A DNA stretch of 49,531 bases from Candidatus Bathyarchaeota archaeon (lineage in GTDB: Archaea > Thermoproteota > Bathyarchaeia > Bathyarchaeales > SOJC01). The translations under genes and the position numbers were made by a program. Positions 36,750 to 43,992 of this stretch are shown in pieces. The stretch spans positions 1 to 49,531 of the forward strand of contig JAOZHR010000005.1 in the NCBI GenBank assembly GCA_026014805.1, given 5' to 3'. Below the pieces are notes generated by a model. The model did not search any database and was not told where the DNA came from. It saw only the letters and a program-made list of their open reading frames with translations. How positions within the stretch are numbered: position 1 is the first letter of the stretch; every line of letters starts with the position of its first letter.

Positions 36750-37790
36750 ATGGTTGACCAGAGAATTGAGAAGCTCGCGAAACTATGCGTTCACTACAGT
36801 GTTGAAATGAACCCTGAAAAAAGTTCTCATAAGGGGAAGCGAACTAGCCTTCCCTCTGATTAACGAAATATATAAGGAGTGCTTGTTAAGCGATGCATAC
36901 CCGCTAATCATGCCAAACCTAGATGTTGCATACACGTTTTACAAATACGCAAAGGAGCACCAGCTAAAATTCGTTTCACCCTTCCACAAGTTCTTGTATG
37001 AAAACATCGACATATCAATAAACGTGTGGTGCCAACCAAACCCTAAGAAACTAACAAACATAAACTCTTCAAAGATAAGAATATTTGCAGCTTCCAGAAG
37101 GGAACTATCAAAAATTTTTAGTAAACGTGCTGTCGAAGGAAAACTCAAATGGACGGTTTTGCCTTATCCTATAAACGCTCAAGTACAAGAAGCCGCCATG
37201 TCACTTGTAGAATACGAAGATTTCGTTTGCAACAGCTGTCTAATTGACAAAGAAGATCCCATCTCAGAATGGAAGAAAATACATGATCAGAAGGAGAAAA
37301 TTTGTGAATTCCTAAACAAGACAAGCAAGATCCGCATAATAGGTGAAGATACAGACTTAACTTTCAATGTAGCAGGCAGAAAATGGATAAATTCTGATGG
37401 GAAAATAAGCATGCCAAGCGGCGAGGTGTTCACAGCTCCCGTTGAAAATTTGGCAAATGGCACAATTAGATTCACTTTTCCCGGAATCTTTCCAGCAGAG
37501 AAGTTGAAGACATAACGCTCACATTTAAAGATGGCAAAATTTTGAAAGCTTCAGCCACCAAGGGAGATGCCTTATTGCAGCAGATTTTGAAAATTGAAGA
37601 TGCAAACCGCATTGGAGAAGCTACCATAGGAACAAATTATGGCATAACAAAATTCGTAAAAACCATGGCTCTTCAAGAAAAGAAAAATTACGGCGCTTAT
37701 ATATCTAAGGATTTGCTCTACCAAATGGACGATAGCCATGAACTCCAGGTTGAGAGTCAAGGTAAGCAAGTATATGAGTTATCTTCTTAG
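36750..37790 (+). pseudogene. M29 family aminopeptidase (AmpS-like), broken and truncated
   Basis: Starting at ATG 36750 (MVDQRIEKLAKLCVHYSVEM), the family sequence runs through two frame changes. The first is at an A6 run (36817-36822), where one extra A would join NPEK to KVLIRGSELAFPLINE. The second is near 37485, joining FTFPGIF to SREVEDITLTFKDG. The metal-ligand Glu motifs are still present (PSGEVFTAP; RIGEATIGTN). The C-terminal ligands (the H of GGTIHI and the HWD motif) are missing: the coding sequence runs out about 50-70 residues early, where the kptA start lies inside it. The gene cannot make an active enzyme. Confidence 0.82.
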
Positions 37791-38271
37791 GCATAACCCT
37801 AAGGATTTGAAAATTGACGAAGAAGGTTTTGTATGTCTTGACGAGTTTCTGCGTGAACTTCGTGAGAAATACAATATCGATGAGCGTTTTATTAATGAGA
37901 TAGCGAATCAAGGAGTCAGAAAACGATTTGAAATAATTGGTGATAACATAAGGGCATTGTATGGGCATTCCATTGAAGTGAACGTTGGACTCGAGGAAGA
38001 TGGATCAGTTGCGGTACTTTATCATGGGACTACTCCCGAATCTGCGTCTAAAATTTTGAAGGCCGGTCTTAAGCCCACGAACAGAAAGTGGGTTCATTTG
38101 TCTCCTGCAAAGGAGATAGCGATTGAAGTTGGGCGAAGGAGAACATCGAAACCTATAGTTCTCGTAGTTAACGCGAAAGCTGCTAGAAGGAAAGGTTTAA
38201 GATTCTTCAGGGCAATAGATCGCGTATTTGTTTGCAAAGGAGTGCCTCCCGAGTACATCAAGCGTCTCTAA
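37738..38271 (+). CDS. kptA: RNA 2'-phosphotransferase (KptA/Tpt1)
   Basis: A 177-residue protein that removes a 2'-phosphate from RNA using NAD+, giving ADP-ribose 1'',2''-cyclic phosphate. The N-terminal winged helix holds SKYMSYLLRHNPKDL (the RH-x(n)-R family motif). The C-terminal ADP-ribosyltransferase-like domain has LYHGTTPESASKILKAGL, VHLSP, and RVFVCKGVPPEYI. In archaea, where tRNA ligation does not leave a 2'-phosphate, the role is unclear; tRNA or RNA repair is possible. It begins inside the remnant of the aminopeptidase gene. Confidence 0.93.
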   Translation: MNSRLRVKVSKYMSYLLRHNPKDLKIDEEGFVCLDEFLRELREKYNIDERFINEIANQGVRKRFEIIGDNIRALYGHSIEVNVGLEEDGSVAVLYHGTTPESASKILKAGLKPTNRKWVHLSPAKEIAIEVGRRRTSKPIVLVVNAKAARRKGLRFFRAIDRVFVCKGVPPEYIKRL

Positions 38272-38340: not shown

Positions 38341-40779
38341 TCACTTTTGTGATCGTTGTTGTTTCTTAGCTAGCATTCTGTCTAAGATTGGCTTCAACTT
38401 TGCGTTTTCCGCCTTAATCTTCTCTAGTCCTAACTCTTCCAACTGCGCAGCCATCTCCTTCATTAGCTCTGCAAACTTTAGTCCTTCAGCGGCTGAAATA
38501 TATTCTACTCGAAAACGCTGAGGGCTTAACCCAAGCTTTTCCAGCATAGGTGCTAAGGCATCCATGCGAGCTTTCATTCTCGCGTTACCACTGATATAAT
38601 GGCAGTCATATGGTAGATGGCACGCACCGACTAGGACCATACCAGCTCCCCGTCTAAAGGCGTCTAACACAAAGTCCCTGTCTACACGACCTGAACACAT
38701 TACACGAATTGGCCTAATGAGGGGGGGATATTCGAAGCGGCTTGTACCAGCTAGGTCTGCACCTGCGTAGCAGCACCAGTTACATAGAAACCCTAGAATC
38801 TTATCTTCTGGTTTCTCTTCCAATGCCGTTCTTATTTGGGCGAAAATTTGTTCATCGGTGAAGTGATTCTGTGTAATAGCGTTTGTAGGGCATTCGGCTA
38901 CGCAAGTGCCGCAGCCGTGGCACATGGCTGTTATAACCTTTGCAGGCTGTTTTTCAGGGGCTTCTATGGATCCATAGGGGCATCGTTGGGCGCAAATGCC
39001 ACATTTCACTTTTGTGTTTCTGCATTTTTCAGGGTTAACCACTGCGACAATGGGTTCTATTTTCCATTTTTTCTTCGAAAGTATGGTTGCTGCTCGCGCT
39101 GCGGCTCCGCTTCCTTGAGAAACACTGTATGGAATGTCTTTGGGGGCTTGACAAGCACCTGCTAAGAAGACACCGTCCGCTGGTGTGTCAATGGGCTTCA
39201 GTTTCGGGTGGCTTTCCATGAAGAAGCCATCTGCTCCCCTTGAAATGTTAAGAATTCTTGCCATGTCGCCCGCATCGGATTTGGGAACGGCTGCTGTGCA
39301 TAAGACAACCATTTCGGCTGGTAGCTCAATAGGCTGTCCCAGTGTCATGTCTTCGGCTCGTATAACCAGATTTTTGGTTTCCGGATCTTCAAGGACGTGA
39401 CTTGCTCGTCCACGGATGAAAGTGACGCCCAAGTTTCGGGCTCTTCTGTAGAATTCCTCATATCCTTTGAAGGGTGTTCTCATTTCCATGTATAAGAGGT
39501 AAACTTCCACGTCATCTTTGTACTTCTCTTTGAGTAGAATAGCGTTTTTCAGCGCGTACATGCAGCAGAAGCCTGAACAGTATTCGTATTTCTTGAGGTT
39601 CCGTGATCCTACGCATTGGATGAAAGCCACGCTGTGAGGCTTTTTGCCATCTGATGCTCGAATAACTTTGCCGCCTGTTGGTCCAGCTGCAAGAATGAGC
39701 CGTTCGAACTCCAACGCAGTAATAACGTTGTCATACTTTCCATACCCATACAGCGGGTCATCATAGGGCAGGTAAATGTCAAAGCCGGTTGCAGCTATTA
39801 TGGCGCCAACTTCTAACTCGACTTCTTCTGGTTTTTGGTCGAAATTTATTGCTTGTCTTGCGCCGCAAGCGTCTACGCACTTGTAGCATTCGATGCAGTG
39901 GTCCATGTTAATAGTGTACACAAGCGGGACAGCCTGTTCGAATGGTATAGATATTGCTTTTCTTACCCCCATATCCATGTCCCACTCGTTTGGATACTCG
40001 ATGGGACAGACGTCTTTGCATTCACCACAGCCAGTGCACTCTTTATGAATGACATATCGTGGATTTTTCCTAATCTTAACTTTGAAGTTGCCCACAAAGC
40101 CCGAAACACTAACCAAGTCGGCGTAAGATATTATTTCAATGTTGGGATGGCGGCTTACATCTACCATCTTTGGGCCTTCAATGCATATGCTGCAGTCCAA
40201 AGTTGGGAAAGTTTTGTCCAGCTGAGCCATGTGGCCTCCAATGCTTTCAGTTTTTTCAAGCAAGTAAACTCTGAAGCCCATCTCGGCCAAGTCTAAGGTT
40301 GAGTTGATTCCAGCTATTCCGCCGCCAATGACGAGGGCTTTGTTAGTGACAGGTACTTCGATTTCTTTAAGGGGGTGAAGCAGTCTTGCCTTTGCAACAG
40401 CCATTCTCACGATTTCTTTGGCTTTCTCTGTGGCTTCCTTTGGCGTGCTGGGATGACACCAAGATGAAAACTCACGGATATTTGCCATCTCGAAAAGGTA
40501 GGGATTCAAATCTGCTTCGGTACAAGTCTTGCGGAAGGTTGGTTCATGCATACGTGGTGAACATGCAGCGACTACCACTCGGTTGAGTCTGTGCTCTTTT
40601 ATGCCCTTTCTGATTTCGTCTTGGCCTGGGTCGGCACATGTGTATCGGTTGTCCTTTGCATAAACCACGTCAGGCAGAGTTTTTGCATATTCTGTTAGTT
40701 CCTTTACGTCGATTACTCCAGCTATGTTGAGGCCGCAGTGGCATATGAATACGCCGATTCGAGGTTTTTCTTTGGTCAT
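38341..40779 (-). CDS. hdrA: Heterodisulfide reductase subunit A fused to MvhD
   Basis: 812 residues from ATG 40779 (a TTG lies two codons upstream, too close to the GGAGG). HdrA is the FAD-bearing, electron-bifurcating core. Order: N-terminal CHCGLNIAGVID; an Fe-S site around TCADPGQ; the FAD dinucleotide fold VIGGGIAGINSTLDLA; a ferredoxin domain with CTGCGECKDVCP and CIECYKCVDACG; the LGQPIELPAEMVVLCTAAVP region; and another ferredoxin pair (CGICAQRCPYGS, CHGCGTCVAECP). From about residue 665 a MvhD-type [2Fe-2S] domain follows (FLCNWCCYAGADLAG, VMCSGRVD, GACHLPYDCHY), which in methanogens links HdrA to a hydrogenase. No hydrogenase or formate dehydrogenase gene is in the window, so the electron donor is unknown. 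Confidence 0.94.
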   Translation of the reverse strand: MTKEKPRIGVFICHCGLNIAGVIDVKELTEYAKTLPDVVYAKDNRYTCADPGQDEIRKGIKEHRLNRVVVAACSPRMHEPTFRKTCTEADLNPYLFEMANIREFSSWCHPSTPKEATEKAKEIVRMAVAKARLLHPLKEIEVPVTNKALVIGGGIAGINSTLDLAEMGFRVYLLEKTESIGGHMAQLDKTFPTLDCSICIEGPKMVDVSRHPNIEIISYADLVSVSGFVGNFKVKIRKNPRYVIHKECTGCGECKDVCPIEYPNEWDMDMGVRKAISIPFEQAVPLVYTINMDHCIECYKCVDACGARQAINFDQKPEEVELEVGAIIAATGFDIYLPYDDPLYGYGKYDNVITALEFERLILAAGPTGGKVIRASDGKKPHSVAFIQCVGSRNLKKYEYCSGFCCMYALKNAILLKEKYKDDVEVYLLYMEMRTPFKGYEEFYRRARNLGVTFIRGRASHVLEDPETKNLVIRAEDMTLGQPIELPAEMVVLCTAAVPKSDAGDMARILNISRGADGFFMESHPKLKPIDTPADGVFLAGACQAPKDIPYSVSQGSGAAARAATILSKKKWKIEPIVAVVNPEKCRNTKVKCGICAQRCPYGSIEAPEKQPAKVITAMCHGCGTCVAECPTNAITQNHFTDEQIFAQIRTALEEKPEDKILGFLCNWCCYAGADLAGTSRFEYPPLIRPIRVMCSGRVDRDFVLDAFRRGAGMVLVGACHLPYDCHYISGNARMKARMDALAPMLEKLGLSPQRFRVEYISAAEGLKFAELMKEMAAQLEELGLEKIKAENAKLKPILDRMLAKKQQRSQK

Positions 40780-40781
40780 CT

Positions 40782-41696
40782 TCAATTGCCCTCCGCTTTG
40801 CCGTATATCTGCGAAACTATCTGCATCGGATCAACCCGCAAGCTTTTTAGAGCCAGTTCTTCAGGTGAGAACCCCATCGCTAAGCCGAGCAGTTGTGGGT
40901 AGTGAAGGACTGGAATTTTGAAGGTTTCGTTAAACATTCTCTCTATTCGAGGCTGGTTGGTGTCAAACATCATGTGGCAGAAGGGGCAAACGGTTATTAG
41001 TGCTTGGGCGCCTGCATCTTTTACGTGAACAAGTTTCTCCCTAGTAAGTTGGAGTGGAATTCTGTCGTTTACGCCTGCGATTGGAGCGCCGCAGCACGCT
41101 ATCTTATCTGTATACTCCACGTATCTAGCGCCAGTTGTTTCAATTAATTTTTTGAGAGTTTCTGGGTTTTCTGGGTTGTCGAAGCCAACACCCTCGACGG
41201 GGCGTGAAACGTGGCAGCCACTGTGCTCGGTCACTTGCACGTTGGTTAGAGGCTTTTTCACCACATTCTTAATCTTCTCTAAGCCCACGTCTTCCGCTAG
41301 CAGTTGGAGAAGATGTTTAGCCTCTATAGTACCTTTAAACTCCAGACCCGTTTCTTTCAAGTAGCCATTAATTCTCTCCCTAAGCTCCTTATCTTCTCTC
41401 AATTTTTTGTTCACTTTGCGCAGAGTCCCGGCACACCCTGGACAAAGGGCAACAATGTTAAGTCCTTGTTGTTCGGCTAAGCAGAGGTTTCTAGCTGCCA
41501 GCGTAAGCATCATTTCATGGTTTATAGGGTCTATAGGAAGACCGCAGCAGTTATACTCTGGCATTTCAACCAATTCTATTCCCAGCTTAGCTAGAACTTT
41601 TCGTGTGGAAATTTCATAACTTGAAACTCGGTAGGGAATAGCACAGCCTAGGAAAAGTAAGAATTTGGAGCTTGAGCTTCTCTCAGGAGTTGTCAC
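40782..41696 (-). CDS. hdrB: Heterodisulfide reductase subunit B
   Basis: A 304-residue protein from GTG 41696, overlapping hdrC by 14 bp. Two CCG cysteine-rich domains (CCGLPIDPINH with ALCPGCAGT, and CCGAPIAGVN with TVCPFCHMMFD) bind the two noncubane [4Fe-4S] clusters that split disulfides in HdrB. In methanogens the substrate is CoM-S-S-CoB. In a non-methanogen the disulfide may be different. It works with HdrC and HdrA encoded on either side. Confidence 0.94.
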   Translation of the reverse strand: MTTPERSSSSKFLLFLGCAIPYRVSSYEISTRKVLAKLGIELVEMPEYNCCGLPIDPINHEMMLTLAARNLCLAEQQGLNIVALCPGCAGTLRKVNKKLREDKELRERINGYLKETGLEFKGTIEAKHLLQLLAEDVGLEKIKNVVKKPLTNVQVTEHSGCHVSRPVEGVGFDNPENPETLKKLIETTGARYVEYTDKIACCGAPIAGVNDRIPLQLTREKLVHVKDAGAQALITVCPFCHMMFDTNQPRIERMFNETFKIPVLHYPQLLGLAMGFSPEELALKSLRVDPMQIVSQIYGKAEGN

Positions 41697-42351
41697 GTTT
41701 GCTCACCTTTCCAAGTATTTTCGAAAAACCGGTTACCTTGGCCAATTTCATCATAACCTCAGGGTTGCCCTTGGGCAGCGGGGGCAATCCAATTTGCTCT
41801 CTTTTCTTCAGTCGCAACTCTGGGATTCGGTAAGCGATGCCGCTTTCTAGAATGCTTAAACCTAAGTCTTTGAAGATTGAGGGCATTAATCCTTGTTCTG
41901 CGGCGGCATTTCTCAGTATTCGTATTACGCTTGCAACTTCTACGTCTTGGGGGCAACGATCGGTGCATGTGAAGCATGCTGCACACAGCCATAGGGTGTC
42001 GCTGGAGAGCACTCTGTTTTTTAGGCCAAGTTGTGTCATGCGGATTATTGCTCTAGGTCTGTAGGAGTCGCTGAATCTTGCAATCGGGCAGTCTGAGGTG
42101 CATGTGCCACATTGAAAACACTGCTTAAGTTTCTCGCCGCCGTGCATCTTGCCAATTTCATATTTGAAGTGAGGATCAAACTCGTGAGCTTTGATTGGCG
42201 CCATCTCCCCAATCTTTGGCTCTGATGCTTTTTCTTTGGCTTTCTGAGGCAATGTTTTCGGAGGAGGAGTGATTGCAACTTTCTTCATTGTCTTAGGAGA
42301 CTCCTTTCTTGCCTTGGCTTCTGGTTTTTGCTTTGGTTTAGTTTCAGCCAT
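41683..42351 (-). CDS. hdrC: Heterodisulfide reductase subunit C
   Basis: ATG 42351 (MAETKPKQ) lies 1 bp past the polyferredoxin stop, with gaggaagaag before it; an upstream start at 42372 would overlap. The two [4Fe-4S] motifs are CFQCGTCTSDCP and CAACFTCTDRCP, which pass electrons between HdrA and HdrB. The first 60 residues are a Lys/Ala/Pro-rich, probably disordered extension that is not usual in HdrC. The core length matches the family. Confidence 0.92.
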   Translation of the reverse strand: MAETKPKQKPEAKARKESPKTMKKVAITPPPKTLPQKAKEKASEPKIGEMAPIKAHEFDPHFKYEIGKMHGGEKLKQCFQCGTCTSDCPIARFSDSYRPRAIIRMTQLGLKNRVLSSDTLWLCAACFTCTDRCPQDVEVASVIRILRNAAAEQGLMPSIFKDLGLSILESGIAYRIPELRLKKREQIGLPPLPKGNPEVMMKLAKVTGFSKILGKVSKRDNS

Positions 42352-42352
42352 T

Positions 42353-43243
42353 TTACTTCTTCCTCGGTTCAAAACGTTTCTTCACTGCTTCCATAGTTCT
42401 TTTTCTTCCTTTTCCACGCAACTCTTTTGCCACTTCAACTGTAGAAGCTAACTTTTCAAGAGCTTTGTTCCATGTCCCTGAACGAACCGGGGTATGACGT
42501 ATTGTTGAGCGTGAAAGTTCTAACACTCCCTCTTCAGGACAGACAATGTTACACACGCCACAGTAGGTGCAGAGAAGCTCATTCACATATACCTTACCGT
42601 TTTCCTCGGAAAGATACAAAGCACCGGTTATTGGGCAAACATCTAAACAATCTCGGCAGCCAGAGGGACACTTTTCCTGGTTAATCTTAAGTTTTCCAGT
42701 GAAAATTCTTCGGACAAGAATAGCACCTTCTGGGCATTTGACTTCGCACACACGACAACAGGGACACTGTTCTTCTCTAATATCTACTGCAACTTTGTTG
42801 GTTTCAGGGTCTGACGTAACTTTGATGAGGTCTAAGGGGCAAGCTTCCTCACAGTCATTGCAATCTGTTGGACATTTTATTACGTCCACAGTAATTTCAC
42901 GGATAAGTTGCGGAAAACTTTCCTTCTCCACTACAGAGGCGATATTCTCACCGTCTATAGTAACTTGCACCGCACCGTAGGGGCAGATGGTGGCGCATAT
43001 GCCACAGTATTGACATTTCGCTTCATCTACGTCAATCAGGGGATGTTGAGCCTTTTGTCCCTCTTTTTTCGGTTGTCGGCTAACTGTGATAGCCTCTTTT
43101 GGACAAGTAAGGCTGCAGAGTTCGCACCCTACGCACAATTTGCGGTCAACAATTAATCTATAGCTTTTTGCGTGATGAATCCTTTCTACTATGAGTTGGT
43201 TGTTGGATTCGGTTTTTTGAATTTTCATGGGCATATTAAACAT
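42353..43243 (-). CDS. Polyferredoxin with six 4Fe-4S motifs
   Basis: The frame opens at 43306, but the TATA box at 43319-43326 places transcription start near 43295-43300, inside it. ATG 43243 (MFNMPMKIQ) is therefore more likely. Six CxxCxxCxxxCP-type sites are visible: CVGCELCSLTCP, CQYCGICATICP, CPTDCNDCEEACP, CPCCRVCEVKCP, CPSGCRDCLDVCP and CTYCGVCNIVCP. Two of them have a CX3CX2C start. It should wire electrons between HdrABC and partners, like MvhB in methanogens. It is the first gene of the operon. Confidence 0.88.
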   Translation of the reverse strand: MFNMPMKIQKTESNNQLIVERIHHAKSYRLIVDRKLCVGCELCSLTCPKEAITVSRQPKKEGQKAQHPLIDVDEAKCQYCGICATICPYGAVQVTIDGENIASVVEKESFPQLIREITVDVIKCPTDCNDCEEACPLDLIKVTSDPETNKVAVDIREEQCPCCRVCEVKCPEGAILVRRIFTGKLKINQEKCPSGCRDCLDVCPITGALYLSEENGKVYVNELLCTYCGVCNIVCPEEGVLELSRSTIRHTPVRSGTWNKALEKLASTVEVAKELRGKGRKRTMEAVKKRFEPRKK

Positions 43244-43318
43244 CCCACGTTGAATGTTAATTCTCTGAGAGACTTCGCTTGATGCTTGCTTATGAAAGTG
43301 TGACATATGTAACCGTAT

Positions 43319-43555: not shown

Positions 43556-43768
43556 AAATTCATGGCAGACAATCTCGAAATTTTACAAAACTCAACCACG
43601 TTTTTTGTGTTAGGAGGCACAGTTCATATTTAGGCCTAAAAAATCTAGGTGAGATTACACATTACACCCGGAGAATTTCTGCCTTGTTTCGAAACGAAAC
43701 GCATAAATCACGTGAATTGGTTTTTATCCAACTAGGTCGGGCGATAGCTCAGCTTGGTAGAGCTTCCG

Positions 43769-43798
43769 AGTTTGCCAGCGTGCCTGGCAGACGGAGAC
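43769..43798 (+). other. Intron 1 of tRNA-Tyr, 30 nt, inside the anticodon stem (30/31)
   Basis: Fits a bulge-helix-bulge exactly. The 4-bp helix is CTTC/GGAG. The 3-nt bulges are CG|A and AC|G, each cut after the second base. A 9-bp inner helix is GTTTGCCAG/CTGGCAGAC (one G-T pair) with loop CGTGC. Non-canonical position. Confidence 0.8.
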
Positions 43799-43805
43799 GC
43801 TGTAG

Positions 43806-43865
43806 AGGCCTGCCCGTAAGGTAGGCATCACCCAGCCTGCCGAGCATACAGCCAATTAGGCAGAA
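43806..43865 (+). other. Intron 2 of tRNA-Tyr, 60 nt, canonical position 37/38
   Basis: The 4-bp helix is CTGT/GCAG (one T-G pair), with bulges AG|A and AA|A, adjacent to the anticodon stem. Inside is a hairpin GCCTGCC/GGTAGGC. The inner helix next to the 5' bulge is weak, so this is a relaxed motif. The boundary could move by one base (A806 and A866 are equivalent). Confidence 0.65.
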
Positions 43866-43992
43866 ACCGGATTGTCGCAGGTTCAAATCCTGCTCGCCCG
43901 ACCAGAAACCACTCTGTCAGCAAAGGACTGAACCCAACTTAGTATTCCGCTAATTGTTATATTTTCGCATAAGAATAGACTATTAAAACCCA

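Follow-up and report, generated by a model that had tools for sequence, protein, structure and literature searches.

Why introns persist in archaeal tRNA genes is an open question, and a review of 2014 knew of no essential intron-dependent modification (PMC4090602). The question arises at a tRNA-Tyr(GUA) gene in the window, the whole stretch of 49,531 nucleotides analysed here from a Candidatus Bathyarchaeota archaeon: are its two introns ordinary ones, or does one of them serve the tRNA that it interrupts? Its second intron contains an element, shared by many genomes, that is conserved and has a defined structure, and for which the target can be specified down to one nucleotide, U35.

The tRNA-Tyr gene and its two introns

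The gene (Table 1) was missed by ARAGORN and Rfam, which report just two other tRNAs in the window, because its introns hide it. Removal of both introns leaves a normal 77-nt cloverleaf (-32.7 kcal/mol) with the anticodon GUA, C1-G72, A73 and an encoded CCA, and the coordinates, lengths and positions of the introns proposed from the sequence were found to be right. C1-G72 with A73 is the archaeal identity rule for tRNA-Tyr. In the 1.79-Mb genome, 41 tRNA hits from Rfam include no recognised GUA decoder, and the gene is therefore apparently its sole tRNA-Tyr; the sequence-only reading had tied a pseudogene to another intact tRNA-Tyr(GTA) in combination with missing spliced reads, and no such tRNA turned up among these hits. 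When the mature tRNA-Tyr sequence was used to search the order and genes were then extracted on exon similarity alone, 57 homologous genes with the same exons were obtained. A pseudogene, considered as a candidate, is rejected for a gene that is apparently single-copy and conserved across the order. Synteny followed through the adjacent ferredoxin gene connected two loci only. The genome is Bathyarchaeia-like, a protein from the neighbourhood having Candidatus Bathyarchaeum sp. as its closest named match. As for the neighbourhood, an ORF resembling KptA/Tpt1 RNA 2'-phosphotransferase by eye lies about 5.5 kb upstream (window 37738-38271, plus strand), and a cluster that by eye is HdrA/HdrB/HdrC-like and multi-ferredoxin lies directly upstream and divergent (window 38341-43306, minus strand).

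Table 1. Features of the tRNA-Tyr gene and of its introns in window coordinates
Feature	Coordinates	Strand	Remarks
tRNA-Tyr(GUA) gene	43738..43904	+	77-nt mature tRNA including encoded CCA, plus two introns
Exon 1 (positions 1-30)	43738..43768	+	basis: intron-1 empty sites in G002, G161, G090, G158, G092, G091, G098, G089, G160, G015, G016
D-loop strand GCUUGGUAG (positions 15-22), 5' strand of lower stem P1	43752..43760	+	99.6% of cells paired; double-sided changes at two positions
Intron 1, 30 nt, 30/31	43769..43798	+	predicted BHB: central helix 43763-43766:43793-43796; bulges 43767-43769 and 43797-43799; inner helix 43770-43778:43784-43792
Exon 2 GCUGUAG (positions 31-37)	43799..43805	+	GCUG (43799-43802) pairs with intron-2 CAGC; U35 = 43803
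Intron 2, 60 nt, 37/38	43806..43865	+	predicted relaxed BHB: central helix 43800-43803:43860-43863; bulges 43804-43806 and 43864-43866
Intron-2 hairpin P2 (GCCUGCC-CGUAA-GGUAGGC), upper stem	43808..43826	+	both-sided changes in 8/10 pairs
CAGC, guide-like	43833..43836	+	pairs with 31-34 beside U35
CUGCCGAGC, 3' strand of P1	43837..43845	+	complementary to D-loop 15-22
ACA box	43848..43850	+	15 nt from CAGC start
Exon 3 (A38 to CCA)	43866..43904	+	

Both introns are present in 48 of the 57 homologues, and the remaining nine carry intron 2 alone. The exact empty site of intron 1, TCCG/GCTGTAG, is seen in nine genes (the first nine genomes named for exon 1 in Table 1), and two further genes brought in by a motif search (G015 and G016) are likewise without it, which makes eleven such relatives in all. 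On this comparison intron 1 is the dispensable, patchily distributed member of the pair. It had been described as an exact bulge-helix-bulge (BHB), which holds for the predicted 4-bp central helix between CUUC (positions 25-28) and GGAG (once GAAG) and for the flanking 3-nt bulges, found in 48/48 genes; the refinement concerns the outer helix, of which this BHB has just 2 bp of its own. The inner helix shows a compensatory change of its first pair from G-C to A-U.

Intron 2 ranges from 46 to 76 nt among the 57 genes. Its predicted BHB has the outer helix, the bulges and a CUGU:GCAG central helix and is without a regular inner helix, that is, it is relaxed; one A can be assigned to either side of the junction, which puts it at 37/38 or 38/39. 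In 56/57 genes a strand of the [A/G]C[A/G]G type, two bases before the splice site, pairs with bases 32-35 (CUGU). The genome encodes two EndA paralogues, an alpha-type with the Tyr/His/Lys triad and a beta-type without the Tyr and the His. As expected, this pair fits an alpha2beta2 splicing endonuclease, and the presence of catalytic and non-catalytic subunits would match the heteromeric type suited to relaxed or non-canonical BHBs that had been called for at this locus.

The two BHBs of the window gene compete for bases 28-33, and removal in a fixed order is therefore likely in this gene; ordered removal is plausible for the tRNA-Tyr precursor. Neighbouring archaeal tRNA introns can require ordered splicing according to tRNAscan-SE 2.0, and tRNAs with several introns, up to three being reported, are frequent in this region of the tree (PMC8450103). 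Archaeal precedents thus exist for two or three introns and for their ordered splicing, and that part of the locus is ordinary. The sequence-only reading stands, as far as sequence can carry it, in its two spliced introns, its BHB for intron 1 and its heteromeric endonuclease, but it missed the conserved functional element of intron 2.

A conserved element in intron 2

The element consists of [C/U]AGC, 9 nt, 2 nt and ACA, and the remaining intron is unalignable. Its 9 nt are complementary to D-loop bases 15-22 and its CAGC to bases 31-34, leaving U35-A36 unpaired. It is found in 57/57 of the genes picked by their exons, in four of which the stem region differs by one inserted or deleted nucleotide, and is kept in full where intron 1 is absent. 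CAGC is nearly invariant, with its first C replaced by U in some genes and by A in some genes of genera g28 and g43. From CAGC to ACA the distance is nearly always 15 nt, the sole exceptions being 14 and 16, and ACA itself is present in 96/96 genes, including all 20 in which the splice site lies at least 10 nt further on and the flanks vary.

The D-loop match of the window gene by itself is modestly unusual (P = 0.019), and the case for the element rests on conservation for that reason. In 107 genes, position 17 and its partner form U-A in 64, C-G in 39, U-G in four and C-A in none; likewise, position 20 and its partner form U-A in 83, U-G in 13, C-G in 11 and C-A in none. Part of these genes were found by a pattern that demanded purines or pyrimidines at these sites, and since it allowed C-A as well as C-G, the zero counts of C-A are informative. 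Both states of position 17 are seen within each of the families f1, f5, f6, f9 and f15, and the change therefore arose more than once. In an alignment of 50 distinct sequences, the D-loop stem, the CAGC:GCUG helix and the hairpin together have 92.3% of their cells paired, versus 24-43% with slid partners, and show 99 double-sided changes versus 29.7 in shuffles. RNAalifold without structure input recovers the D-loop stem and the CAGC helix; the latter is without compensatory support of its own because CAGC hardly varies. Among the other introns of the genome, no D-loop complement beyond chance was found.

It may be asked whether these are ordinary introns of a plain multi-intron archaeal tRNA, with the conservation of intron 2 a matter of drift-limited sequence without a role. 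The frequency of multi-intron tRNAs in this part of the tree would suit such an account, which is nevertheless scarcely credible in view of covariation well above the slid and shuffled controls, an invariant ACA and a spacing fixed across the phylum within an intron that is otherwise unalignable. The comparison shows both introns, their predicted BHBs, the three helices as a covarying set, the ACA box and the fixed spacing. Judged on these grounds, the element of intron 2 is both conserved and functional, pairs with the D-loop and with bases 31-34 and is, as far as we know, new.

About 120 tRNA-Tyr genes of the class carry the element, which is also found in six more families of the phylum. 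A strict pattern matches in 95 of 257 class genomes, versus three chance matches for the reversed control. For genera in which the strict pattern was missing, among them g30 and g43, a search with the 5' exon only showed a variant of the element in 26/26 complete genes; in most of these, and in g30 and g43 by name, a 1-nt bulge of the stem is offset by a spacer 1 nt shorter, such that the distance from CAGC to ACA stays 15. The apparent absence from these two genera was hence an artefact of an over-strict pattern. Outside the class, 16 of the 20 inspected matches sit in tRNA-Tyr introns (families f29, f61, f32, f34, f35 and f50), all in genes without intron 1, and the other four are chance. 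Some genomes of the phylum gave no match, for example those of genus g144 of f29. A search with PF02461, which bears on an ammonia-oxidiser identity of f29 and f61, gave no match anywhere, controls included.

A predicted guide-like fold around U35

Archaeal H/ACA RNAs have a ruler of 14-16 nt, a lower stem of 7-9 bp and an ACA box, and in Sulfolobus solfataricus the pseudouridine at position 35 (Psi35) of pre-tRNA-Tyr is described as made by a trans H/ACA sRNA in the accounts given by PMC7991803 and PMC4652768. The best explanation of the element, to which we give a probability of roughly 0.6, is that the precursor, folded by its intron 2, serves as an H/ACA-like guide in cis for Psi35. Before splicing, intron 2 would shape the precursor into an H/ACA-type pseudouridine guide with the target built in: D-loop bases 15-22 and intron 2 would form a 9-bp lower stem, and pairing of the intron CAGC with GCUG at 31-34 would expose U35-A36 as unpaired bases beneath the hairpin of the intron, at 15 nt from the ACA box. 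The H/ACA machinery, with Cbf5 at the ACA box, would convert U35 to Psi35. The precursor would then refold, with bases 32-35 pairing with [A/G]CAG at the 3' end of the intron while the anticodon stem forms, to give the splice substrate, and the two BHB introns would be cut out by the two-subunit splicing endonuclease. Intron 1 would sit at the junction of the two composite helices, in a place compatible with the composite fold. From this layout we infer the binding of Cbf5, the formation of Psi35 and the order of the steps.

When compared with the features of the class, ACA lies 14-16 nt from the target-pairing position, and a lower stem of 9 bp, with the D-loop as one strand, ends 1-2 nt before ACA. 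Of the two guide strands that flank an unpaired UN in an H/ACA guide, the 3' strand only is present, and the 5' side is the target itself, which is covalently part of the pocket. Hairpin and CAGC are joined by a linker of a few nt (about 3-8). The loops of the hairpin are mostly short and without tandem G-A, and its inspection revealed neither a K-turn nor a K-loop for L7Ae. By the criteria of the class this is not a standard archaeal H/ACA guide, and it may work like one. A box C/D guide was considered for intron 2 and dropped, as direct reading found neither a C box (RUGAUGA) nor a D box (CUGA).

The need for a guide has to be weighed against the enzymes of these genomes. TruD/aPus7 makes Psi35 in many archaea. 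It is found with its AGIKD catalytic motif in 150 of the 163 genomes of the order and is thus apparently intact, and Psi35 may therefore need no guide. The idea that a guide exists because aPus7 was lost is unsupported, for TruD with the catalytic motif occurs in element-bearing genomes. In G002, a genome that has no intron 1, TruD appears as two partial pieces 0.73 Mb apart (G002:C1:581343-582179 and 1311105-1311863), which may be a split gene or an assembly artefact.

The predicted minimum free energy (MFE) structure of the window precursor is the composite fold, with U35-A36 unpaired between the CAGC:GCUG helix and the hairpin. Across the gene set this fold prevails in the predicted ensemble as long as intron 1 is present, though it is not the MFE structure of every gene. 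Among full precursors with intron 1, the predicted MFE structure has the lower stem in 48/57, an unpaired U35 in 50/57 and the CAGC helix in 33/57, and the last figure falls to 14/57 after removal of intron 1. Without intron 1 the window gene is close to balanced, at -57.1 for the composite and -55.5 for the splice-ready fold; such near-equal predicted energies suit a switch and prove nothing.

The same folds could be explained by splicing itself. As a folding lock or chaperone unrelated to pseudouridylation, the helix between the D-loop and intron 2 would delay the cloverleaf until intron 1 is gone, or would give the BHB of intron 1 an outer helix. In line with this, the composite fold excludes the BHB of intron 2 and accommodates that of intron 1 at almost no cost (-72.9 vs -73.9 kcal/mol), the CAGC helix is the commoner in predicted structures with intron 1, and ACAG doubles as the central-helix strand of BHB 2 in the short introns (17/57). 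A lock, however, would have no need of an ACA held 14-16 nt from CAGC while the splice site follows at anything from 3 to 18 nt, nor of the compensation between bulge and spacer, and would not require the element to be fully kept in genes without intron 1. It is the main rival to the cis guide, and we consider it unlikely.

The excised intron 2, possibly circular, could alternatively be a small RNA that acts in trans on spliced tRNA-Tyr or on tRNAs that share its D-loop. Archaeal tRNA introns circularise, and 13 nt of this one are complementary to mature tRNA-Tyr; for the tRNA-Trp intron with its box C/D guide, use in trans is on record (PMC4090602). The pairing, however, tracks the D-loop variants of the gene's own tRNA, and the lower stem would need to form between two molecules and against a folded tRNA, which makes a trans role distinctly improbable.

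Returning to the cis guide, we lean on balance towards the wider view that much of the phylum retains the canonical tRNA-Tyr intron because it makes the precursor a composite of guide and target for Psi35, the refolding of which couples modification to splicing. If true, no earlier H/ACA-type guide known to us would be joined in cis to its target or be located in a tRNA intron, and an anticodon modification would be tied to the order of splicing through an RNA switch. No description of an H/ACA guide inside a tRNA intron was found in the open-access literature, of which the coverage was incomplete.

Known systems and other tRNA introns

The nearest known system is the trans H/ACA sRNA for Psi35 of S. 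solfataricus and Aeropyrum pernix (Muller et al. 2009), which, as far as it is described in PMC7991803, PMC4652768 and PMC6313347, shares the U35 target, the unspliced precursor, the 9-bp lower stem, the ACA and the ruler of 14-16 nt. In those accounts the guide is a separate trans RNA with the standard archaeal H/ACA fold, whereas here a single pre-tRNA would contain guide, stem and target, and the D-loop would supply a strand of the stem. The H/ACA-like RNAs of Pyrobaculum without a lower stem are similar in retaining the ACA box and the spacing in a non-standard fold, but they are separate RNAs with a K-turn and two guide strands, while the predicted structure of tRNA-Tyr has a lower stem, built with the D-loop (PMC4652768). 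The box C/D guide in the tRNA-Trp intron of Haloferax volcanii is likewise a case of an intron that informs the modification of the anticodon region of its own tRNA; it differs in directing 2'-O-methylation with C and D boxes of its own and reportedly in trans, whereas the tRNA-Tyr layout is of the H/ACA type and pseudouridine is predicted (PMC4090602). In eukaryotes, Psi35 of pre-tRNA-Tyr is also made on the intron-containing precursor, but by Pus7, a stand-alone enzyme that is sensitive to local sequence and intron length and uses no guide pairing (PMC11408192).

Several other tRNAs of the same genome (Thr, Gln, Met, Ser and Phe; loci L197-L210) have canonical or non-canonical introns, because of which ARAGORN misnames some of their anticodons. 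The 97-nt intron of its tRNA-Trp (L203, G000:C6:8650-8990), in which GATGACGA is present, is a possible carrier of a box C/D-like guide; it also has 8 nt complementary to the D-loop, a match of doubtful significance (P = 0.13).

The multi-intron tRNAs of Thermoproteales and Thaumarchaeota resemble the present gene in having BHB introns at canonical and non-canonical sites with ordered removal; up to three introns are reported there, whereas some relatives of this tRNA-Tyr apparently have five (PMC8450103). In families f4 and f6 (L139, L140, L170-L180 and others) the T arm of many tRNA-Tyr genes is interrupted by another one or two introns (GCAGGAGAG...GGCGAATTCAAAA...), which are absent from f1 and most of f5. 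Four tRNA-Tyr genes of another order (L121, L122, L123 and L124, in G194, G197, G199 and G200) apparently contain five introns, near 9/10, 30/31 and 37/38 and two in the T arm. Removal of all five by hand from the gene of G200 gives a 77-nt tRNA-Tyr. The published maximum that was found is three introns.
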